Of a DNA stretch of 64,000 nt, positions 38,098 to 62,064 are shown one piece after another (position 1 is the stretch's first letter; each line of letters starts with the position of its first letter). The stretch comes from Okeania sp. KiyG1 (lineage in GTDB: Bacteria > Cyanobacteriota > Cyanobacteriia > Cyanobacteriales > Microcoleaceae). The DNA is taken from assembly GCF_014132355.1 (NCBI RefSeq), contig NZ_BLZO01000060.1, positions 62,001-126,000 on the forward strand, given 5' to 3'. Made by a program: the position numbers and the translations under genes. Under the pieces are notes generated by a model. That model made no database searches and had not been told where the DNA came from. It was given only the letters and a program-made list of their open reading frames with translations.

Positions 38098-40054
38098 CAC
38101 AGGCATTCACGGTCGAGCCGACCGCATTTCTTAAATTTATACTTGCATTTAAATCTCAATAAGATTGACAAGCCACAGTCGGGGCAGTCATAAGTTCTCA
38201 GATGCAAGGGCATGTCTTGAACATGACCACAATTAGAACAAGTCTTTGATGATGGAAAGAATCTATCTACTACTACTAATTCACTTCCGTACCATTGGCA
38301 CTTGTATTTAAGCTGTCTGCGAAATTCAGAAAATCCTTGGTCGGCTATTGATTTAGCTAGCTTTGGCCCGGCTAACATTCCTCTGACGTTTAAATCTTCT
38401 ATGACAATACTGCCGTGGTTGTTATAGTCGATGTGGCGTATTACCGCCCGCACCTCTACTTCAAAACCCTGCGTGCGACTTTCACCGCACAAGGCTCCTA
38501 GCAGTCTATGGCAACGTATCATGTGAGATACAAAATCCTTTGATTAAGACTAAACTTGGTCAGAGTCCAGTGATTCCTAATCTTCCACTATTGTTTTCAA
38601 GGAGTGTCTAATCCTACCGCCTTGGAGCTTCTGCTTCCGGGTCGCTTTGCATTCGACTAACGAGCAAGGCAATTACAGGTTAAAAGCTTCTGCCCTGTAC
38701 GCATAGTTTCAGCGAGCTTCACTCTAGGTGTCTAAGCATCATCACCTATCCAACTACCGTTTCTCGACTGCCGGGGGCAATTCTGTTCCCCATCCTACCC
38801 GTCAAGTGAGAATTCCGAGCTTCCCTCCTACTAACTAAATAACCTATTTTAGTCAGACTCACTTGCCGTTTTTCCTCGTTCCGAGTTACAGATTATTTTG
38901 ACGGTTTAGGGCTGTCCAATTCGCCTACACGATTCCCAGGGATGCGTCTAATGCCAAAATATTACGCGGGATTTCCTCGTGTGCGGTCAAGAGATAAGAG
39001 GTGGTTCTTGCCGTACTTTGAGGCGCTTTTTCAGGACATTCCGCCCCGGTACCCATGCCGTCTCCCCATTACCCCCAGTGTGCCTACCACTATACGCTCT
39101 GGTTGGGGCCTGTTGCCAGCTTCACTCTGCTAGTGGAAAGGTCTAGCTCGGTGTGGCCAGGTCGGGAGTCTGCCTTCCCTTGGCAGGTGGGACTTTCACC
39201 CACATCCGTGACTCAGTTATTCATTGAGCTTAATTGCTCTTTGAACCCTGTTCATACCCCTCTAGTTTCTAGAGGCTCCTAACAGGAACGAGTCGCACTT
39301 TGGCTAAGTATGTTGTCAGTTTATGAAGTGCGTCTTGACGAATGTTTGCTACTTTTCTTAGCAACCTAGCTATCTTAAGTTGTGCTTTTCTCCAATTAGC
39401 AGAGCCCACCTGTTTATGACGATTTAGGTATTGCAGCCTAGACAACTTGGCTTCAAATTTCTGATAGGCTCTGACACTTTCAAATACTTTTCCATCACTT
39501 AGTGTAGCTAAGGTTTTCATACCTAAGTCTACACCTACTACATCAGTTTTTTTGGGTGTAGTGTGAGAATGAAATTCATAGCTACAGCTCAAATACCAAT
39601 CACCTGCTTGTCTGCTAATAGTTATTTTTTGAGTTGTAGCTTCAATTGGTTCAGAAGTTTTTACAATACCAATAAAAGGTAATTTGTGACTCCATCCGTT
39701 TAGTTCTATTGGTTTTCCACAATTATCTATTGTGAATGAATCAGACCTACCTTTCTTTTTAAATCTTGGATATTTACCCAATCCTTGAAAAAACCTTTTA
39801 AATGCTTCACCCAAGTTAATAAAAGCATATTGATAAACTTTAGACGATAAGTTTTTCATCCAGGGGTAGAGGGGTTTTGTGTGATTGGTAAAAACCTCTC
39901 TAAGCTTACGGTAATTTGGCTTATAACCATCTCTGTAAGCAGCATTCCACAGACTTAAACCCCAGTTATAACACCAGCGTGAATAGCCTGCGTGTTGAGC
40001 CATCAGAGTTTTCTGTTTATTATTAAGTTTCAGCTTTGTTCTAATGGATTTCAT
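38098..40054 (-). pseudogene. tnpB: tnpB split by a group II intron, second exon frameshifted
   Basis: Exon 1 (40054-39299) is exactly 252 codons: MKSIRTKLKLNNKQKTLMAQ, YPRFKKKGRSDSF, DVVGVDLGMKTLATLSDG (RuvC-I), ending LTTYLAK. Exon 2 from 38423 continues NNHGSIVIEDLNVRGML (RuvC-II), FRRQLKYK, and the zinc ribbon CSNCGHVQ...CPDCG. Joining them restores a normal TnpB with no lost or added codon. Near 38150 a shift spoils the DRDxNA motif; in the next frame INLRNAVGSTVNACA is readable to a stop at about 38098. So splicing is neat, but the catalytic third Asp is lost or mis-sequenced. Short ORFs inside the intron are not genes. Confidence 0.85.
38424..39298 (-). ncRNA. Group II intron, ORF-less, in sense orientation inside tnpB
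   Basis: 875 nt. The 5' end GTGCGACTCG fits the GUGYG consensus. Domain I hallmark-like segments follow (GGATGTGGGTGAAAGTCCCA). Near the 3' end is a textbook domain V, GAGCCTTGTGCGGTGAAAG then TCGCACGCAGGGTTT at about 38497-38462. A short domain VI follows with an unpaired A about 8 bases before the end, and the 3' terminus is ...CGACTAT (AY). Exon codons on each side join in frame (LAK-NNH). There is no reverse transcriptase, so it depends on a maturase in trans. Confidence 0.88.
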
Positions 40055-54051: not shown

Positions 54052-54264
54052 AATAATTTGAGAATATAATTTATAGTTATTGCTGGCGATTTAGAAATTA
54101 AGTTTTAATTAATAAACTAAAACATGATTTAATACTTATCTTATGTTATCTAGGCCCAATATCCAAGATAAAATTTTTTGCCAGAAAGACTTGCAAAATT
54201 TAGAATTATTCTGCTACAATTGTGGAATTGTGAGCAAACATAAAATTTAATAGTTTTGCTTTTT

Positions 54265-54351
54265 GGAGAGGTGGCCGAGTGGTTTAAGGCGCAGCACTGG
54301 AAATGCTGTTATGGGGTGACTTATACGGGGGTTCGAATCCCCCCCTCTCCG
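54265..54351 (+). tRNA. tRNA-Ser (anticodon GGA)
   Basis: 87 nt. Acceptor GGAGAGG pairs with CCTCTCC at 54344-54350, with discriminator G. The anticodon arm CAGCACTGGAAATGCTG gives GGA. A long variable arm (TTATGGGGTGACTTATAC region) is as expected for a class II tRNA. T arm GGGGGTTCGAATCCCCC. No CCA encoded. A plus-strand ORF across it is spurious. Confidence 0.95.
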
Positions 54352-54874
54352 TTCTATAAAATGGGTTTCTGTGATTTAGCCAAAGTTAGGCTCTGGTTTA
54401 ATGGTGTAACAAAGTATTTACCAAGGATGAATTTCATGCCTTATTTCAGCAATGCCCTTTTTTAAAATTGGTATAACATACTTTGGGGCTTTGCGCGATC
54501 GCTTAACAATCAGATTACTACTGTTAAAGCTGATTAATGTATCAGATTATATCATGTCCGTTTAATTAGTGATAAAAAACTTTCCTTTCCTCATTCTTTA
54601 TTATTCTTTTTGTAATTGACCCAATACACTTGATCGCGATTGTTGGTCTTGGCAGCTATTATAATTGCCTACCCCATCATATTGAGTGGATACGATCATT
54701 TTTTGTGTCTTTTTTCAAAAATTTTCTTCCCTGTTGCCTGTTGCCTGTTGCCTGTTGCCTACTTCTATTTATAAGTATTCAACCGGACATGATATTACTA
54801 CTGTTCAAGCTGATTAATGTAATGGTGAAAAGAGAAGAAAACCAGTAACTTTTAATTCTACCGTGGCAATATCC
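54352..54874. repeat. Intergenic with family E copy
   Basis: Family E element at 54549-54795: ATATCATGTCCG at the left, CCGGACATGATAT at the right, with CTGTTGC heptamers near 54731-54758. The 200 bases after the tRNA hold a GCGCGATCGC site and no gene. Confidence 0.7.
54549..54795. mobile_element. Family E miniature element
   Basis: Longest copy of the family. Its left AGTGATAAAAAACTTTC matches the copy at 20541, and its right AGTATTCAACCGGACATGAT matches 20641. Confidence 0.7.
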
Positions 54875-55425
54875 TTATTGTTGAGATTTTTGCATCCAAC
54901 TTACAATTTCTTGAACTAATTCTTCAGTTTTTTTCGTACCATCAACAGTTAAGTCAGCTATTGTAGGTAGCAAATTTTGTACCTGTACCTCAGTAGAATG
55001 AGCTTCAATATCTTGATAATTTTGATAATGAATTATATTTCTTTCATTTAAACGAGCATTACGAATTTTTCATCAATACATATAAAAACTAAGCGAAATT
55101 CTAAAGGACTAATAATTCTCCGGAGAGTTTTCAGAACTTCGACATGACGAATACCATCTATTACTAATGGCTGTAATGGTTTCCAATTTACTTGTGCTAA
55201 TACTGATTGACAAAACTTTTCTATTCCTTGATCGATCAGAGAAGCACCCAAATTTTGTAATACTTCTCTTGATTCTTCAAGGTTTCGACTTCTAGCAACA
55301 GTACAAACATAATCACCAAAACTGATATACTGCCAACCTAAATGTTGAGAAATTTCTTTGGAAAGAGTTGACTTTCCGCTAGCAATTTTACCAGCAAAAC
55401 CAAGGACTATTGGTTTCATTTCCAT
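54875..55425 (-). pseudogene. P-loop nucleotide (deoxynucleotide) kinase-like, one frameshift
   Basis: PIVLGFAGKIASGKSTLSKEI (Walker A) and YISFGDYV, then PLVIDGIRHVEVLKTLRRI (DGIRH lid/base region typical of phage and bacterial nucleoside monophosphate kinase-like AAA_18 proteins) and LVFICIDEK. The frame breaks at the T-run 55066-55070. With one more base it continues IRNARLNERNIIHYQNYQDI ... VSWMQKSQQ to a stop at 54875, giving 183 residues. Last gene of the putative operon; overlaps the ASCH gene by 10 bases. It would phosphorylate a nucleotide made or freed by its neighbours (inference). Confidence 0.75.
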
Positions 55426-55964
55426 AAATCAAGCTCCAATTGACCTATATTTTCATGTAATACAACCCAACCCCGGCGATCGCGTTTAACAAACTTTACC
55501 GGAGAAATAGGCTTAACATTTTGAATTCGCATTAAAGTAGCATAGGAAGCTTTTTCTCTATCTTCCCAAAACTTGTTATCTTGAGCGCAGATAGCGGCTG
55601 TAAATTTTTCTTTGATTGTTTGCCAAGATTCAGGGTCCAGTTCATAGAACCAAACGTAAGCAACCTGACAAATGCCAACAATTGCTCCACTCGAACGCTT
55701 GAGCAGTACAATGTCACCTTTTTGGACGCGCTGATAAGGAGCAAAGCGTCGAGTAGCAAATCTTGATTCCACAGTTTTCTGACCATCCAGTATAAACTGG
55801 AGATATGGCTCAACTAAGACAGCTAAATGAAGAGCAAATGGCTCTAAACAAGGTTTATTTAACTGTTCCAGATAATTTTCCCAAAAAGCATCGCCCTTTA
55901 AGGCTAACCGTAGGTCATCAACCAATAAGTTAAGGGAATTATTTATTTTTCCTTTATCCTTCAA
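55416..55964 (-). CDS. ASCH-domain protein
   Basis: This 182-residue protein has a short helical start, then an ASCH domain at about 45-170: FALHLAVLVEPYLQFILDGQKTVESRF, with the conserved G-K-E, QRVQKGDIVLLKRSSGAIVGICQVAYVWFYEL, and a C-terminal CAQDNKFWEDREKASYATLM. ASCH (PUA-like) domains bind RNA or modified nucleotides, and one member hydrolyses N4-acetylcytidine. The KxVESR and GD(x)2L patterns are intact. It overlaps both neighbours and is therefore translationally coupled. Confidence 0.85.
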   Translation of the reverse strand: MKDKGKINNSLNLLVDDLRLALKGDAFWENYLEQLNKPCLEPFALHLAVLVEPYLQFILDGQKTVESRFATRRFAPYQRVQKGDIVLLKRSSGAIVGICQVAYVWFYELDPESWQTIKEKFTAAICAQDNKFWEDREKASYATLMRIQNVKPISPVKFVKRDRRGWVVLHENIGQLELDLWK

Positions 55965-56202
55965 AGATTAAATTCTCCTTTTGTTCCACTTCTATCAGTT
56001 CAATAATCTGATGAGTGGTGTCAGAAACTTGCTTAGTTTCCCAATTATTTAAGGAACGCTTTAAAGCAGATTCAACAGCTTGATGAGTAGATTGATTTTT
56101 TCTCAAAGCCTGCAAAATTAACTTCCCTTCGGGAAGTCCCGCGCTCTCGCTCAGGGGAGCGTCGTATGGGAAAAGCCAGGGCCTAGATTCGGATACCTTC
56201 AT
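55954..56202 (-). CDS. Small operon protein, unknown function, N-terminus altered by a palindromic insert
   Basis: 82 residues. The well-formed part is LILQALRKNQSTHQAVESALKRSLNNWETKQVSDTTHQIIELIEVEQKENLIFEG, predicted helical. The N-terminal PYDAPLSESAGLPEG comes from a hairpin-rich insert (CTTCCCTTCGGGAAG and GAGC-type arms, about 56117-56170), so the original start was probably different. No family recognised. It overlaps the ASCH gene by 11 bases. Confidence 0.55.
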   Translation of the reverse strand: MKVSESRPWLFPYDAPLSESAGLPEGKLILQALRKNQSTHQAVESALKRSLNNWETKQVSDTTHQIIELIEVEQKENLIFEG

Positions 56203-56286
56203 AAGCTAAACGTTCATATGCCCTTGACAAGCTAGGAGCATTTTGTTATTATCAATATCAAAACAGGGGGAGGACATCACCTCTGT

Positions 56287-57462
56287 CTAAACAGCGGTCA
56301 GGGTTTCCCAGACTGAAGAATCCCTATTTTTCCCGTAAGGGCAACGTCGGGAGTATGTCAATAATAATATACCGCAACCTTGGCAAGCAAAAATGCGATT
56401 TCCTGAAGTCCAAACGTCTGCTAATGGACGATGCCGATCTCGGCGACTTACCGATTGAAGTACATCACCAGGTAGAATGGATTTTAAAGATGGCTCTAAA
56501 AATTTAGTAACATTTTGCTGCTTAACGCGAATTCTTACTCCATCCAGCAATTCTTCAATCCATTTTGCTTGCTGATGGGAAACTGTAGGGCGAGGTACGA
56601 AGGTTTGATGAGTCCGCTGAAATATAGCTAAATTACTTCGTCGCCATTCTTTTGAAACTTGTGAAATTCCTTCAGCTTTTAGGGAATTTAATTCAAAAAT
56701 TGGGGTTTGATAAGATAAGGCAAGTTCGTCTAAGCGATACAAAGTTAGACCAATTTGTTTAGCCCAGTTTAGAGTTTCCTTCCATTCTCGCTCCATTCCT
56801 GGTCTAGTTCCCAGAGGAGGCAGACTAATCAAGATATATCCACCAACCTGACATATTTGACACGCTGCCCATAGAAATGAATTGATATATTCTGGATACC
56901 AGGGTGGATCGAGGACAACTGCTTCGGCAGAAATTTGAGGAAGCGAATCTCTCATTACATCACATTGCACTACTTGTTCCTTGGAAGTTATTTGAGCCAG
57001 ACTAGAAATTATGGCTTGGCTAGCTTCAAGCAAAATTAACTCTCTAGGATAAGAAATTTCTATGCCCATTCGCAGTAAGCTAGGTGTTCCGATTAATGCT
57101 ACTTTACTATCATCAGAAGTCAGTTTTTGACATTGATTTAACAAATCTGTAGTAGCTACATCACTAAATCGCCAATCATAGTCTAGAGGATGGGGAACAG
57201 GCAAAGAAATTTGGTGCGCCAAGCTAATTGTTTTTCCCACTTTTTGGTTATCTGTTTTCAGGATGTTGTCCATGACTTGTCTAGAAATTTTCTGATCAGA
57301 AACAAGTCTTTGTATAGAGTTAAGCACTGTTGATGGATACACACTAGGCAAAGAAGTTATCAATTGCTCAAAGGTAGTAATATTTGTAGCAAGGGTTTTT
57401 AATATCCAATAATCAACAGATTTTTCAAATTCTCGTATTTCAATATCTGTAATTGAGTTCAT
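56287..57462 (-). CDS. DPPW-motif SAM-dependent methyltransferase with N-terminal winged-helix-like region
   Basis: 391 residues. Residues 10-70 look like a winged helix (WILKTLATNITTFEQLITSLPSVYPSTVL). Residues 118-260 form a Rossmann-type methyltransferase: KVALIGTPSLLRMGIEI, LILLEAS (acidic strand end), and catalytic motif VVLDPPWYPEYINSF at 183-196, then GGYILISLPPLGTRPG. The C-terminus holds HRPLADVWTSGNRIFACQGCGILL and SRRCPYGK, a possible zinc pair. DPPW is the motif IV of N6-adenine or N4-cytosine enzymes including MT-A70. DNA, RNA or a nucleotide could be the substrate. Confidence 0.78.
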   Translation of the reverse strand: MNSITDIEIREFEKSVDYWILKTLATNITTFEQLITSLPSVYPSTVLNSIQRLVSDQKISRQVMDNILKTDNQKVGKTISLAHQISLPVPHPLDYDWRFSDVATTDLLNQCQKLTSDDSKVALIGTPSLLRMGIEISYPRELILLEASQAIISSLAQITSKEQVVQCDVMRDSLPQISAEAVVLDPPWYPEYINSFLWAACQICQVGGYILISLPPLGTRPGMEREWKETLNWAKQIGLTLYRLDELALSYQTPIFELNSLKAEGISQVSKEWRRSNLAIFQRTHQTFVPRPTVSHQQAKWIEELLDGVRIRVKQQNVTKFLEPSLKSILPGDVLQSVSRRDRHRPLADVWTSGNRIFACQGCGILLLTYSRRCPYGKNRDSSVWETLTAV

Positions 57463-57481
57463 TTTATAGAATGAATAAATA

Positions 57482-57620
57482 ATATCAAATTCAGTAGCAT
57501 CGGTGTTATTCAGTATTTAAAGATAAAGAGTCTATATTGTAGGGGCGAATGGCATTCGCCCCTAACCATTGTATAGCGACGACAGAATTATATTACTCCG
57601 AAGCCAGCGGATTTGATATA
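57482..57620. mobile_element. Family E variant inside the accessory operon
   Basis: ATATCAAATTCAGTAGCATC at the left and CCAGCGGATTTGATATA at the right, related to 1266-1426. It carries the palindrome GTAGGGGCGAATGG-CATTCGCCCCTA at 57540-57566. It sits between the radical SAM and methyltransferase genes and ends 30 bases after the former's stop. Confidence 0.65.
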
Positions 57621-57649
57621 ACTATTGGTTAGTAAAATCCTTTCAACTT

Positions 57650-58648
57650 TTAAGTACCCAATGAAACATCAGCAATATTCATAGCTCTTTCTTCAGAGGA
57701 AAATCGAGATTCTAACTCTTGTTGCCAAGCTTCAATAGCAATTTGTTGATTTTGCCAGGCATCAGCTATTGCCATATTGATTCTTTGTTTGACTGGAGTA
57801 AATTCCTGAATCTTGAGTGGAACTGTCCGCAGTGGTAAGTTTTCATCAAGCATTTGCAGGCGATCGACAAAACGATTTACATCTTCTCTTATTTGCTGTT
57901 TTGAGGGTGTGGTAAAAGTAGCATAGGCATATAAATCAATGCCCAGTGTTAAAAATCTGTTCATCAGGTTAAATTGTTGTTCAAATAGTTCTGGTTCAGC
58001 ACGAGTATTAAATGCAAATGACTCAGTATTAAAACCTTTAAAACAGCAAACTCGACCATAGTTTTCATAAGTAGCAACAAGTTCAATATCTGCGTCTGAA
58101 AGAAATCGCCAAAAATAATCATTACTAAGATTATCATCAGACCAAATATAAATTTGTTTTTCTAGTCCGCGACTTCTAAGTTCAGCCATCATCCAAGGTA
58201 CCCATTCAGGAATAATATCTGGCTGGCCACCAGTTAGATCGATTATCGGAGGTGGGTTTGTTTGGCTAAGATAGCGATCGATAAGCATACTAGGACTTAA
58301 CCATTCTGAATGATGGGGGTTTGCACTGAGCAACTCAAAAGGAACATAACAATACCAACAACGCCAGTTACAAACAGCATTTTGAAAAACTTGCGATCGC
58401 ATCATATCTGTTGATGGTAAACCTAATGCTTTGCAAGCTGGATCGATGGGTAAGGGATTTGGAATCCAAGAATCTCCTAAATTTCGCCGAAAGTGTCTAA
58501 TTCGTCCAACTCCGCCACAATTAGGTGGTTCGCTTAAATCTTTCTCTTGTTGAGTATTATGGAAATTGGTTATTAATAACTTCTTTTCACCTAGATTGAC
58601 TGATGCAGTTCGATAGTGAGTTGATAAAGTGTCTGTATTAATAGGCAT
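57650..58648 (-). CDS. Radical SAM protein
   Basis: This 332-residue protein has the [4Fe-4S] motif CNWRCWYC (Cys93, Cys97, Cys100), followed by IIDLTGGQPDIIPEWVPWMM (GGE-like SAM-binding motif at about 135-150) and QIYIWSDDNLSNDYFWRFL, ELVATYEN in the barrel. A pre-barrel segment of 85 residues (GGVGRIRHFRRNLGDSWIP) is unusual. The reductive cleavage of SAM drives a radical reaction; the substrate is not predictable, though the partners (methyltransferase, kinase, ASCH) suggest a nucleotide or RNA. Start and the upstream stop share TAATG, so it is coupled to the DUF4186 gene. Confidence 0.85.
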   Translation of the reverse strand: MPINTDTLSTHYRTASVNLGEKKLLITNFHNTQQEKDLSEPPNCGGVGRIRHFRRNLGDSWIPNPLPIDPACKALGLPSTDMMRSQVFQNAVCNWRCWYCYVPFELLSANPHHSEWLSPSMLIDRYLSQTNPPPIIDLTGGQPDIIPEWVPWMMAELRSRGLEKQIYIWSDDNLSNDYFWRFLSDADIELVATYENYGRVCCFKGFNTESFAFNTRAEPELFEQQFNLMNRFLTLGIDLYAYATFTTPSKQQIREDVNRFVDRLQMLDENLPLRTVPLKIQEFTPVKQRINMAIADAWQNQQIAIEAWQQELESRFSSEERAMNIADVSLGT

Positions 58649-59292
58649 TACAACTTTTGTTCCTCTTTAGTTTTAGATGAACTTCTAGGATTTTTATTTG
58701 GAATTCGTGGAACTTTTTCTCCATTTTCTGTCAGTTTTGGCAATCTTTCTTCAATGTAAAGCATGACCAAATTTGTTAAATATTCAATTTCTGTTACAGT
58801 CAAATCCCGACCTTGAGGAATTTGATGCCAATACTCAATACATTTCCGACAACAACAAGCTGTAGCGTGTTGAGCATAATATATAGAGTTTCCTGAGTTT
58901 TCTTTTGGTGTTTGTCTACCTTCATTATAATTCTGTGCAGAACCCACAGATTTACTAATTCGCTGAACAACAGCTTCACGGAGTTTAATTTTTCCTTTTC
59001 TACGAGCATGATTAATAGCTTTCTGGTCAATTTCAAGGTGCCAATAATGATGGCGTATTTTTTCGTACTTGAGAGCTTGAAAAGTATTTTGAACATCACT
59101 CAAATCACGTTTGTGAACTCTTTCCCAATCAACCAGGTCAGCACCACACTCGCGACATGAACCAAATGGCTGATTAACATTTTTCTTTCTTTTATCTTGC
59201 AAAAAGCAATGCAAATTGTTTTGACAATCTGTGCTAGTACACTTAATTTCTAGGGGTTTTAATTCCTCTTCTGCATTCCATTCGTCTGTCAT
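58648..59292 (-). CDS. Zinc-binding protein with C-terminal DUF4186 domain
   Basis: 214 residues. The N-terminus has two Cys pairs (CTSTDC at 18-23, SCRECGADL at 45-53) likely forming a zinc ribbon, then RVHKRDLSDVQNTFQALK and RHHYWHLEID. The C-terminus has GRQTPKENSGNSIYYAQHAT, then ACCCRKCIEYWHQIPQGRDL and TVTEIEYLTNLVMLYIEERL. The HATA(x)2CCRxC plus WHxIPxGR string is what I know of DUF4186, here extended at the N-terminus. Function unknown; the paired Cys/His look like a second metal site. It ends on the radical SAM start codon. Confidence 0.8.
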   Translation of the reverse strand: MTDEWNAEEELKPLEIKCTSTDCQNNLHCFLQDKRKKNVNQPFGSCRECGADLVDWERVHKRDLSDVQNTFQALKYEKIRHHYWHLEIDQKAINHARRKGKIKLREAVVQRISKSVGSAQNYNEGRQTPKENSGNSIYYAQHATACCCRKCIEYWHQIPQGRDLTVTEIEYLTNLVMLYIEERLPKLTENGEKVPRIPNKNPRSSSKTKEEQKL

Positions 59293-59333
59293 AGTTTTTT
59301 CAATCTCCTATTTACATAATTTTTTTGCTGTTT

Positions 59334-60809
59334 TTAAACATCAGATAGAGCCTGCATTAATAGATTTATATCTATTTGATTGAGTTTTCCAAAGTTAATT
59401 TTTTCAAGCAGAATATCTCGCGCAATTTCCCAAGGATCGGAAGAGTCTGTATCTTCTTTTTGTAAATTCATAGCGGTTCCCCACCAATTTTCTCCCTGCA
59501 AAGAAAGGCGAAATGCCATGTAATTTGCTAATGAAGATAATGAAACTTTTTCTATTGTTGCAACTTGAGGAACAACTTTTTTTAATCGCTCAATACTTCC
59601 CTGAGCATTCTTAACGCATAAATCGGCTAACTCTTTAGCACGACCATCAAGAATAATATGCCCGGCAAATCTACTAGCTGTTATTTCTTCTTTAGAATTC
59701 CTTCTCTCTTCTGCTGTTTCACTCTCCTCAATAATTGTCCGCTCATCTAATTTTGGCTCTTGAGCTGTATGCCAAAGTTCATGGAGCAAATCGAAAAGCC
59801 AACGAGAAGTATAGTGATTTTGCTGTTTCAGGACAATAATATTACGACCCTGAATGCGCCAAAAAGCACCATGAAATGAACCAGAATCTTTTAATGGTAA
59901 AACTGGTATTCCCAAACTCCAAATGTACTGGAGAGTATGTTTAAAATCTAAGCTGCCATAAGTAGAAATAATTGTTTCTCTAACCTGATTAGGATTAGTA
60001 GGAACTGGCTTTTTTGGTAAATCTGATGTAGCATCAAATACTAAAAGTGCTAAATAATGAGCATAGACAGTATAGGCATTAAAACGTTTTTCATTAGCTC
60101 CTTTAGGCAATTTAAAACGTGCTGCCCCTATTGCTGCTGTTTCTAGTTGAAGTGAATCAGAACTGAATATTTCAGCAGGTCTTAATCTAAATATTCTCTC
60201 CAAAATTGCTGCAATTTTTAAAGCTAAAACACTTGTTTCTTGCTCAGATAAATTATCTGATTCTATCTTTTCAACTACATCTTGAGAGATAAGTCTTTTA
60301 GTAATCAAGTTGCGTTCAATTCCTACTTGCTTTAAACGACTAAACAGGGCTTTTAGCGAGACTTCAGAACTAGGTAAGAAAACATCTTCTGTTACCTGAA
60401 TACCGAGTATTTGGATTATCTCTCGTATTCTTGTTAAGCTAGCAGAAGCATATTCTGTTGCTTCATATCTTTGGATTTGTTGTTCTTTAAGATCGAGTCT
60501 TTCAGCTAATTCTTTCTGAGTTAAACCAGAGGCAATACGAGCTTTGATTAGAGCAGTAGGCAATTCATCTAATGAATGTAATTCAAGAATTTCTTGTTGA
60601 CCAGATTTTAAGGCTTCATATTCTAATAACTCTTCACGAAGGTCGTTAAGCTGACTTTCTAAAGCTTCTTTTTGAGCTTTTAAAAGAAGTGGATGAATTT
60701 CTTGACTACTACCCAAATTTTGCGTTAGTTGTACCAATGCTTCTTCAAACTTTTTAGCTTGAGATTGAGTAACACGATATTGTTTTTCATTTTTAATCAT
60801 GGTTGCCAC
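59334..60809 (-). CDS. XRE helix-turn-helix protein with ImmA/IrrE-type metallopeptidase domain
   Basis: 491 residues. Coiled-coil-like start (1-75), XRE helix-turn-helix at about 88-137 (LIKARIASGLTQKELAERLD, LKEQQIQRYEATEYASASL), a second helical section with a further HTH-like segment (SLKALFSRLKQVGIERNLIT), and a zinc peptidase-like domain with HELWH at about 340-344 in FDLLHELWHTAQ. ImmA/IrrE proteins cleave or sense partner repressors under stress. Here both parts are fused, so it may be a self-controlling repressor of the operon. It overlaps the upstream gene by 13 bases. Confidence 0.85.
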   Translation of the reverse strand: MATMIKNEKQYRVTQSQAKKFEEALVQLTQNLGSSQEIHPLLLKAQKEALESQLNDLREELLEYEALKSGQQEILELHSLDELPTALIKARIASGLTQKELAERLDLKEQQIQRYEATEYASASLTRIREIIQILGIQVTEDVFLPSSEVSLKALFSRLKQVGIERNLITKRLISQDVVEKIESDNLSEQETSVLALKIAAILERIFRLRPAEIFSSDSLQLETAAIGAARFKLPKGANEKRFNAYTVYAHYLALLVFDATSDLPKKPVPTNPNQVRETIISTYGSLDFKHTLQYIWSLGIPVLPLKDSGSFHGAFWRIQGRNIIVLKQQNHYTSRWLFDLLHELWHTAQEPKLDERTIIEESETAEERRNSKEEITASRFAGHIILDGRAKELADLCVKNAQGSIERLKKVVPQVATIEKVSLSSLANYMAFRLSLQGENWWGTAMNLQKEDTDSSDPWEIARDILLEKINFGKLNQIDINLLMQALSDV

Positions 60810-61243
60810 CTACTCAAATCTATTGCAATAATGCCTTTCGGATTACCATTTTTATCAATCTGAAAAAATTCTAGAAAAGTATTTACCCCGTCTGCTATCC
60901 AAGATGCTGGAAATAATTCCCCCAGGTACTTAATTTTCTGTGCTGCTCGTCTGTCATCAAATTTATACAAAACTGGGTCAGATTCATATAAGAAATCAAA
61001 ATCTACTCCAGTAGTATCCCAACAAGCATCGAAATCTCCTGGAACTTCTTTTGTTGTAACAAAGCTGCCATCAATATAAATAGTTTGACATCCAGCTTTT
61101 GATAGAACATCAATAGCAGACTTGAGTCCTTTAATTAGTTTCTGGCGATGTGGCGTAATTCCAAATCGCTCAACAAATTCAGGCCAAGTAGCCCAATGTA
61201 CCCCTGGAGGCAAATTTCCGTCTTTATTGAATAATTTTATCAT
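60797..61243 (-). CDS. DUF6932-type nucleotidyltransferase-like protein
   Basis: 148 residues. TIYIDGSFVTTKEVPGDFDACWD (residues 55-77) carries the GSF and paired Asp (D70, D72) of the polymerase-beta nucleotidyltransferase fold, as in MNT and AbiEii-type toxins. N-terminal LPPGVHWATWPEFVERFGITPHRQKLIKGL fits the DUF6932 start. It is the first gene of the operon, starts at ATG 61243 directly against the first operator palindrome, and overlaps the HTH-peptidase gene, the usual layout of a toxin-antitoxin pair. No ribosome site is visible, so translation may be leaderless or start at another codon. Confidence 0.78.
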   Translation of the reverse strand: MIKLFNKDGNLPPGVHWATWPEFVERFGITPHRQKLIKGLKSAIDVLSKAGCQTIYIDGSFVTTKEVPGDFDACWDTTGVDFDFLYESDPVLYKFDDRRAAQKIKYLGELFPASWIADGVNTFLEFFQIDKNGNPKGIIAIDLSRWQP

Positions 61244-61244
61244 A

Positions 61245-61294
61245 ACACAACTTTTTTGTTGTGTAGTAATAATAACACAACTTTTTTGTTGTAT
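61245..61294 (-). promoter_or_regulatory. Paired palindromic operator upstream of the accessory operon
   Basis: ACACAAC-TTTTTT-GTTGTGT at 61245-61264 and ACACAAC-TTTTTT-GTTGTAT at 61275-61294. The two are exactly 30 bases apart, near three DNA turns, so a regulator would bind the same face twice. The first adjoins the ATG at 61243. Most likely ligand is the XRE-type protein encoded second in the operon (inference). Confidence 0.75.
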
Positions 61295-61518
61295 TGCAAA
61301 TAAAAATTATCTAGAGAAGGAGAATTAGTGGCCAGTCGTCTCATGTAATATAACCATTTAATAGTAGGTGGCACTAATTTGTGTTTTTTTTATCCTCATT
61401 TCCTCTAATCAAACAGTCTAAATTCGGCGTTGGTAATTGGTGGGATGATTTTCTACTAGGGGTAATACCCGTCACTTGCTCTGGTTAAATATTTAGAGGT
61501 GTCAGAAACAGATTACTT
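61295..61518. other. Intergenic, no other feature seen
   Basis: About 220 bases between the operator and the DUF1349 stop. No repeat of the named families; presumably the operon promoter and a terminator of the upstream pair. Confidence 0.4.
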
Positions 61519-62064
61519 TTAAAGTTTCATCTCTTGATTTACCAACGCCCTAAATTCTTCAAACACAACAGAAAAACCATCCCCATCAGGAGAAGCACAC
61601 ATTAAACCAACTTGCAACTCATTTGCCGTAGTCAAATAACCCAGTCTCAACAAACTATACCTCTCTCCATCCAGAGAATATTCAACTTCCACTGTTTCTC
61701 CACTCCGCTTTAACCGCAACCAAATACTTTCCGGGTTTTCCGGCAACGATACCACTGACCAGTCAGAATATTCTCTAGTCACCACAGCACTTGCCTGTTG
61801 CACGCCATCTACAAATTCAATGCCACATTTTACCCAAGTTTTCTCATCCAAACGCACCATCAAACCTGCTTGGTCGTATAATGCTTGATATTCACCAGTA
61901 ATTTTGACTTGGGCGGTAAAGTCACCTGTAATATTCTGATAATAAAAATGACCGTTATCGCGAATAAAACCATAGTGAGTCACTCGCCAAAAATCTGTCT
62001 TTGCACCAGTGGTGACTTGAATTACTCCATCTTGGTCGCTCCAGACAGGGGTTGGTTGTACCAT
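61519..62064 (-). CDS. DUF1349 (concanavalin-like jelly-roll) protein
   Basis: This 181-residue protein of beta-rich type has FWRVTHYGFIRDNGHFYYQNI, GDFTAQVKITGEYQALYDQAGLMVRLDEKTWVKCGIEF, and SIWLRLKRSGETVEVEYSLDG, the usual DUF1349 sequence that resembles glucan-binding lectin folds. No signal peptide. It overlaps the end of the GH92 gene by 43 bases. Function unknown; a carbohydrate link is suggested by the neighbour. Confidence 0.87.
   Translation of the reverse strand: MVQPTPVWSDQDGVIQVTTGAKTDFWRVTHYGFIRDNGHFYYQNITGDFTAQVKITGEYQALYDQAGLMVRLDEKTWVKCGIEFVDGVQQASAVVTREYSDWSVVSLPENPESIWLRLKRSGETVEVEYSLDGERYSLLRLGYLTTANELQVGLMCASPDGDGFSVVFEEFRALVNQEMKL

Follow-up and report, generated by a model that had tools for sequence, protein, structure and literature searches.

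The oxetanocin proteins OxsA and OxsB comprise a radical S-adenosylmethionine (SAM) enzyme, the cobalamin-dependent OxsB, and an HD hydrolase, which act on a nucleotide. In some prokaryotes the radical SAM proteins viperin and SAND, whose characteristic products are 3'-deoxy-3',4'-didehydro nucleotides, are linked to a nucleotide kinase, and PADLOC includes a viperin-kinase model. Viperin and SAND proteins make nucleotide analogues with reported antiviral activity (accessible part of PMC9642334). The phage Z (2-aminoadenine) pathway, PurZ-DatZ-MazZ, joins a base change on a free deoxynucleotide to the action of DatZ and MazG-like hydrolases (PMC8342488, in the part available to us), and the available part of PMC7641849 describes (PIN)-GNAT-EVE operons in which ASCH proteins, AAA_17-type proteins and XRE fusions occur together. 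Here we describe an operon on the minus strand of a 64,000-nucleotide stretch of the Okeania sp. KiyG1 genome (contig NZ_BLZO01000060.1, positions 62,001 to 126,000; this whole stretch is hereafter called the window). We tentatively propose, at a probability of about 0.42, that it is a mobile, self-regulated set of seven genes making a modified, probably deoxy-, nucleotide, that its role is probably antiviral, and that the copy in the window is damaged.

The window's open reading frames (ORFs), aligned with those of relatives, give seven ancestral genes at 61243-54875, which we designate A, B, C, D, E, G and H. A first-pass annotation of this DNA had counted eight, the extra ORF (55954-56202) being the C-terminal remainder of the methyltransferase. 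The named ORFs do lie on the minus strand, as it said, and span 61243-54875, and the motifs that it listed (CNWRCWYC, DPPW, HELWH, a P-loop and ASCH) are all present. The features, in window positions, are the following.

61276-61293: operator copy 1, of the CACAAC-N6-GTTGTG type with one mismatch
61246-61263: operator copy 2, an exact palindrome that starts 20 nt before the start of gene A
60797-61243, minus strand: gene A, DUF6932 (PF22014, 133.8 bits, cut-off 27), with the GS...DxD motif
59334-60800, minus strand: gene B, XRE-type helix-turn-helix (HTH_3, 34 bits) plus M78/ImmA-like peptidase domain (Peptidase_M78, 25 bits, cut-off 22)
58648-59292, minus strand: gene C, DUF4186 (PF13811, 99 bits, cut-off 25) with a Cys-rich, zinc-ribbon-like N-terminus
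57650-58648, minus strand: gene D, radical SAM protein of 332 residues with CxxxCxxC (CNWRCWYC in the window)
56287-57462, minus strand: gene E, DPPW methyltransferase, N-terminal part (interrupted), recognized by alignment with intact relatives
56114-56363: repeat inside gene E resembling a miniature inverted-repeat transposable element, repeated elsewhere in the genome
55954-56202, minus strand: C-terminal remainder of gene E, which aligns with the C-terminus of intact methyltransferases
55416-55964, minus strand: gene G, ASCH domain protein (PF04266, 23.6 bits, cut-off 21.2)
54875-55425, minus strand: gene H, P-loop protein like the nucleoside monophosphate (NMP) kinases, frame broken near 55060 (first piece AAA_17, 35.3 bits)
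54420-61550: cassette, bounded by the outermost reach of congener DNA similarity on either side

Protein D shares with viperin and SAND the CxxxCxxC cluster motif, which is common to the radical SAM superfamily, but it scores 16.3 bits against NF038283 (cut-off 180), and the operon differs further in having seven genes, among them those for a methyltransferase, an ASCH protein, a DUF4186 protein and a putative repressor of its own. The likeness to the phage Z pathway lies in the proposed change of a free deoxynucleotide and in the kinase family of H, which in a separate module is fused to PurZ-like domains. Accessory genes of the hydrolase kinds accompany some relatives only (HD in 5, MazG-like in 1 and DCD-like in 7 of 86 loci), and not the window copy. 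The operon differs in that it has a radical SAM protein instead, with no PurA/PurZ (PF00709) match in the eight window ORFs. With the (PIN)-GNAT-EVE operons it has ASCH, AAA_17 and XRE (HTH_3) components in common, but no GNAT, EVE or PIN match was found among the same eight ORFs. Protein D also differs from OxsB in that, within its 332 residues, a Pfam scan finds no cobalamin domain match.

Protein B has the XRE plus M78-type architecture of RmrA/RmrT in PADLOC (which we take to be RosmerTA) and of the spr1629-type repressors. It differs from both: the best RmrA model reaches 33.7 bits, with its best stretch over the helix-turn-helix, and no RmrT match occurs among the eight ORFs, while the spr1629 model gives 32.1 bits against a cut-off of 335. 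No description of the operon, or of the function of its operon-specific proteins, was found in the literature searched, which mostly excludes subscription papers, and an earlier description is possible.

Conservation and mobility of the gene group

A scan of 84,980 species genomes gave 88 relatives of D. Eighty were kept and, with five plasmid loci and the window, make up the 86 loci that were annotated with family profiles. Presence was counted in the 65 loci with enough flanking sequence (the window and the five plasmid loci included), the 21 of 86 with short flanks being excluded. D, present in all 65, is accompanied by H in 64, G in 63, B and C in 61 each, E in 59 and A in 49. Thirty-three of the 65 have precisely the order A-B-C-D-E-G-H, and these include cyanobacteria, Planctomycetota, Chloroflexota, Bacillota, Pseudomonadota, Acidobacteriota, Verrucomicrobiota and Bacteroidota; several more loci differ just by a split or doubled gene. 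The first-pass annotation had staked its operon on the genes being conserved as a group in other genomes, and they are, in this shared order and with D in 15 phylum-level groups. One of these groups is an archaeal bin, whose locus (L015) could be misbinned. In each of 20 genomes searched whole, D is single-copy. The conserved gene order and the operator described below show that the group is no artefact of ORF calling.

On plasmids, D matches seven of 72,556 records, and G and H match exactly the same seven. The five plasmid loci that were opened, from cyanobacteria, Rhizobium and Roseovarius, keep both the gene content and the gene order; the methyltransferase of the Roseovarius plasmid is unannotated and was found by profile. 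No relative of D is present in 50,697 phage records or in IMG/VR, and a phage origin is on that ground unsupported. Copies without the window's breaks occur in cyanobacteria and rhizobia, which makes the operon directly testable.

In ten loci (L018, L031, L036, L038-L041, L056, L060 and L076) a small DUF4160-like gene replaces DUF6932 before the XRE gene. Of the two that were scanned, that of L038 lies above the Pfam cut-off and that of L018 below it (17.7 versus 23 bits).

The genes also travel together. Distances among the D proteins are correlated with those among A, B, C, E, G and H (r = 0.84, 0.79, 0.59, 0.86, 0.77 and 0.66, respectively), and none of 1000 permutations reaches any of these six values; restricted to pairs from different phyla, Pearson r is 0.29-0.53, with the lowest values for H and C. 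The tree of 84 D proteins, with 15 phylum labels and one row unlabelled, has 25 label changes, compared with a minimum possible of 14 and a shuffle mean of 57.4, and therefore indicates clustering by phylum with some between-phylum transfer.

Members of the set are fused as B-H (L048), G-H (L023, L026), E-G (L053, L070) and C-G (L017). In L028 and L031 D-E-G-H faces C-B-(A) on the opposite strand, and in L030, L057, L070 and L083 D-E-G-H stands without A-B-C nearby; operon-type DUF4186 was found in none of the genomes of these last four loci (positive controls 2/2). For loci that lack E, no E was found elsewhere in nine of nine genomes searched whole; the same family profile finds gene E in the window's own genome at 441 bits. 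We infer that A-B-C are concerned with sensing and control, and that D-(E)-G-H are the enzymes.

A different division of the locus would make it a toxin-antitoxin or plasmid-addiction operon, with A-B as the addiction module and D-E-G-H as passengers. The first-pass annotation had remarked on a resemblance to toxin-antitoxin regulation, and this holds for the first two genes, which are found as a pair alone on plasmids and in which DUF6932 can give way to the DUF4160-like gene as listed above; it does not extend to the rest of the operon. The passenger arrangement is nevertheless quite improbable, as B and C each accompany D in 61 of the 65 loci, B is fused to H in one locus, and four loci have D-E-G-H without A-B nearby.

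The gene group is mobile. D is absent from five of five congeners searched whole, so that it is present in one of six genomes of the genus, and in one of 386 drawn from the phylum, namely the window's own. Congener DNA similarity runs to 54420 and resumes from 61550 at most, with additional repeat-like matches of about 50 bp to the congener L124 at 54642-54696. Three congeners (L120-L122) have other genes between tRNA-Ser and the glycosidase gene: the cassette of L121 encodes a TIR-STAND protein (nSTAND1 317 bits, TIR_2 48 bits), and the other cassette genes of the three are trypsin-like or AAA-like by appearance. In two further congeners the two flanks are on different contigs. The stretch from tRNA-Ser to the glycosidase gene (window 54264-62000) is likely an insertion hotspot. 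The operon of Tolypothrix PCC 7712 is part of an 18,401-bp insertion that is missing from PCC 7601 and includes transposase and recombinase genes (PMC9679502, accessible part).

Operator and control

Two CACAAC-N6-GTTGTG palindromes, 30 bp apart, are located directly before gene A in the window (61246-61263 and 61276-61293), which upholds the 30-bp-phased double operator described at first pass. Two matches are seen where 0.05 are expected, and two occur in none of 100 shuffles. Among the 60 loci in which gene A has its start and 60 nt or more of sequence precede it, the palindrome is exact in 42, has at most one mismatch in 56 and at most two in 58, and it mostly begins 20-25 nt before the start of gene A. 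It is present in 11 of 12 phylum groups; the twelfth is the single locus L027, where an exact copy lies outside the searched zone and was scored as a miss. Elsewhere in the same loci the background is 2 matches per 982,040 positions. Within the 11-Mb assembly, the sole site of the 20-nt extended palindrome with zero mismatches is this locus; allowing one mismatch brings in six more, among them the other operator copy, and a reversed control pattern has 2 sites. Conservation of the operator across phyla also supports the shared regulation that had been supposed for the genes, and a rare operon that has D in 15 phylum-level groups and keeps its own operator across phyla is unusual.

Judged from the sequence, the simplest reading is that B autorepresses the operon by binding the paired palindromes, and that repression is lifted via the peptidase part of the same protein, probably on a trigger such as infection.

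Pairs of DUF6932 and XRE(-M78) genes without the enzyme genes were seen on plasmids in L088-L092, for example ahead of a Beta_protein gene or next to genes for Tn7-like transposition. Two of these five pairs carry TACAAC-N6-GTTGTA, a variant of the operator with two mismatches.

Enzymes and the proposed link to nucleotides

Motifs were counted in full-length members only, partial proteins being left out. GS...DxD, presumably of the nucleotidyltransferase type, is present in 60/60 A proteins, HExxH in 72/74 B proteins, CxxxCxxC, GGxP and CxKG in 84/84 D proteins, DPPW in 62/65 E proteins, a GxKxxExR-type motif in 70/74 G proteins and Walker A in 75/80 H proteins; the Cys and His columns of C are invariant in 35 aligned sequences. 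The E ORF of the window has no Pfam family above cut-off. In profile searches of the PDB the H family is closest to small NMP kinases (AdkA-like 3lw7, 46 bits). The radical SAM, methyltransferase and ASCH proteins have weak matches only, DUF4186 has no convincing relative (two matches, E 0.65-0.68), and none was found for DUF6932.

Some copies are accompanied by accessory genes. A DCD-like gene, Pfam-confirmed in every case, is present in L017, L021, L039, L042, L043, L049 and L075, and sits between C and D in five of these seven loci. L017 also has a deoxynucleoside kinase gene, L070 a MazG-like gene located between D and E, and L030 a NUDIX gene following H. In the cyanobacterial loci L002, L007, L010, L011 and L012, H has an HD-dGTPase-type gene (called by annotation, Pfam or clustering) beside it. 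The DCD-like, deoxynucleoside kinase, MazG-like and HD types presumably act on free deoxynucleotides. The NUDIX, MazG-like and HD genes would also suit a set for repair or salvage, clearing damaged nucleotides under stress; we consider this explanation very improbable, as the operon is patchy and rare (1/386 of the phylum, 1/6 of the genus), stands in a mobile context and has a dedicated operator.

The kinase profile was searched against 385 genomes of the class to which the genome of L066 (G422, a Bradyrhizobium) belongs, the best nine candidates per genome being scored. Two operon-type kinases come first at 186 and 181 bits (the search centre and L168, which has the full operon), followed by a lone relative at 82 bits and by four fusions to adenylosuccinate synthetase (PurA-type) at 62-70 bits; the remaining matches among these best nine per genome reach at most 45 bits. 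All 12 fusions, four genomic and eight from plasmids, have Ser at the position of PurA Asp13, as checked by alignment for one of them. In the accessible part of PMC12884076, Ser for Asp13 is a mark of PurZ, and the fusions are likewise in keeping with the conserved Ser23 that lies near the base in PurZ according to the available part of PMC8342488. Each of the eight plasmid fusions has a DUF7002 gene and an HD gene beside it. The three HD proteins that were scanned match PF12917 (YfbR-like) at 22.0, 25.6 and 22.5 bits, all just below its cut-off of 25.9; this family is used for DatZ in the same accessible part of PMC12884076.

This separate module, consisting of the kinase domain-PurZ-like fusion, DUF7002 and usually a YfbR-like HD protein (L094, L095, L126-L131 and L169-L172), occurs on plasmids and in genomes and is possibly a bacterial relative of the phage Z pathway. 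It is adjoined by a protein with M78 and Macro domains in L169, and by a Macro-domain protein in L172. A pair made up of an E-type DPPW methyltransferase and a PUA-like/metallophosphoesterase protein was seen at L093:5992-8345 and L094:5929-8384; the part of L093 that was read showed no PurZ-like gene.

We favour a nucleotide as the substrate because H is nearest to the NMP kinases, because some loci have accessory deoxynucleotide genes, and because the kinase family is fused to PurZ-like domains in a module beside which E relatives can occur; the mobility, rarity and switch-like control of the operon lead us to an antiviral role. D, (E), G and H would then form the enzyme module, in which D may alter a purine or other (deoxy)nucleotide and E, where present, would decorate the altered nucleotide by adding a methyl group. 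H would phosphorylate the modified monophosphate towards the triphosphate, and G, through its ASCH domain, may bind the modified base or hydrolyse and clear it. The product would most likely disturb the replication of an invading phage. The first-pass annotation had the set make or sense a modified nucleotide, and what speaks for the making is association (the accessory genes in a minority of loci and the PurZ-like kinase fusions) and nothing beyond association. Should an antiviral or DNA-incorporated nucleotide be made, the operon would be a further route to new nucleotide analogues alongside viperin and the Z pathway, and a role would be found for DUF4186 and DUF6932.

A more specific form of this proposal, which we regard as doubtful, is that cells possess their own equivalent of the phage Z pathway, switched on by infection. 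Here D would make a non-canonical deoxynucleotide, the kinase would feed it to polymerases as a poison or marker, and the hydrolases would clear the natural deoxynucleoside triphosphate.

The chief rival to a free nucleotide as substrate, possible if rather doubtful, is modification of nucleic acid in place. In that case D and E would alter a base within polymeric DNA, tRNA or rRNA, the ASCH protein would read or place the mark, and the kinase would serve as an ATPase or end kinase. ASCH/PUA-type domains are described as binding nucleic acids, and some are predicted to bind modified bases (PMC7641849, in its accessible part). The E family is weakly like 2ift (HI0767, E 0.0012), the rRNA small-subunit methyltransferases (E 0.018) and METTL5 (E 0.8), and nine of 34 E members show a likeness to the N6-adenine methyltransferases of PF10237 (E up to 0.01); in addition, an HNH-type gene lies near five copies, one of them Pfam-confirmed. 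Yet the kinase profile aligns over nearly its full length with small NMP kinases, the accessory genes are of types that we take to act on free deoxynucleotides, and the conserved core is without a nuclease.

The product might instead be a small nucleoside-like toxin, an antibiotic or a signal nucleotide, used in competition or in signalling to an effector and not directly against phage replication. A radical SAM and HD pair makes the nucleoside oxetanocin, and the motif found in 60/60 DUF6932 proteins presumably marks a nucleotidyltransferase type. We think this unlikely: no exporter or immunity gene is found among the recurrent neighbours (clusters in at least three loci), and a compact set spread over many phyla is unlike a biosynthetic cluster.

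Several observations weigh against an antiviral operon that makes a modified nucleotide. To our knowledge none of its members has a known activity, substrate or effect on phage. Protein D reaches 21.5 bits with the Pfam Radical_SAM family (PF04055), below the cut-off of 29.5, and in the PDB profile search the H family is also close to ordinary adenylate kinases. The accessory deoxynucleotide genes are confined to a minority of the 86 loci, and the window copy has none. E relatives adjoin the PurZ-like fusion in three of eight plasmid modules only, and one E-type gene with its phosphoesterase partner lies without PurZ in the stretch read, for which reason we reject this nearness as proof of a tie, which may be coincidental. 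The PurZ-like modules that were scanned gave no ASCH match. In the 13 listed loci lacking gene A the operator is missing. Finally, PADLOC models were compared with 130 of 154 flank proteins and 130 of 156 control-region proteins, and matched 53 families in the flanks and 117 in the controls, many models matching one protein. Among the matches listed, the flanks have AbiE, type II restriction-modification and others, and the controls a Gabija pair, HerA and others, with no clear excess of defence genes in the flanks over the controls.

The copy in Okeania sp. KiyG1

Gene E of the window is split by an insert of about 250 bp at about 56114-56363, where the aligned relatives have one uninterrupted frame. 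Most of this insert (212-257 bp, 76-87% identity) is matched at 11 other places in the genome, and the matches number 47 in all, its own copy included. Gene H is broken near 55060, the first 120 residues or so lying in one ORF and the remainder in another frame; this break may be real decay, or it could be an assembly error. Because gene E is split by a repeat and the frame of gene H is broken, the window copy is probably inactive, and a working operon is not supported here.

The same annotation had given overlaps of 13, 1, 11 and 10 bases at four junctions. These agree with mechanical ORF calls, and two of them depend on the choice of start: with the ATG at 60800, genes A and B overlap by 4 bp instead of 13, which matches the annotation in a relative.

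Outside the operon, a group II intron match (Rfam, 51.3 bits) is located at window positions 38421-38499.

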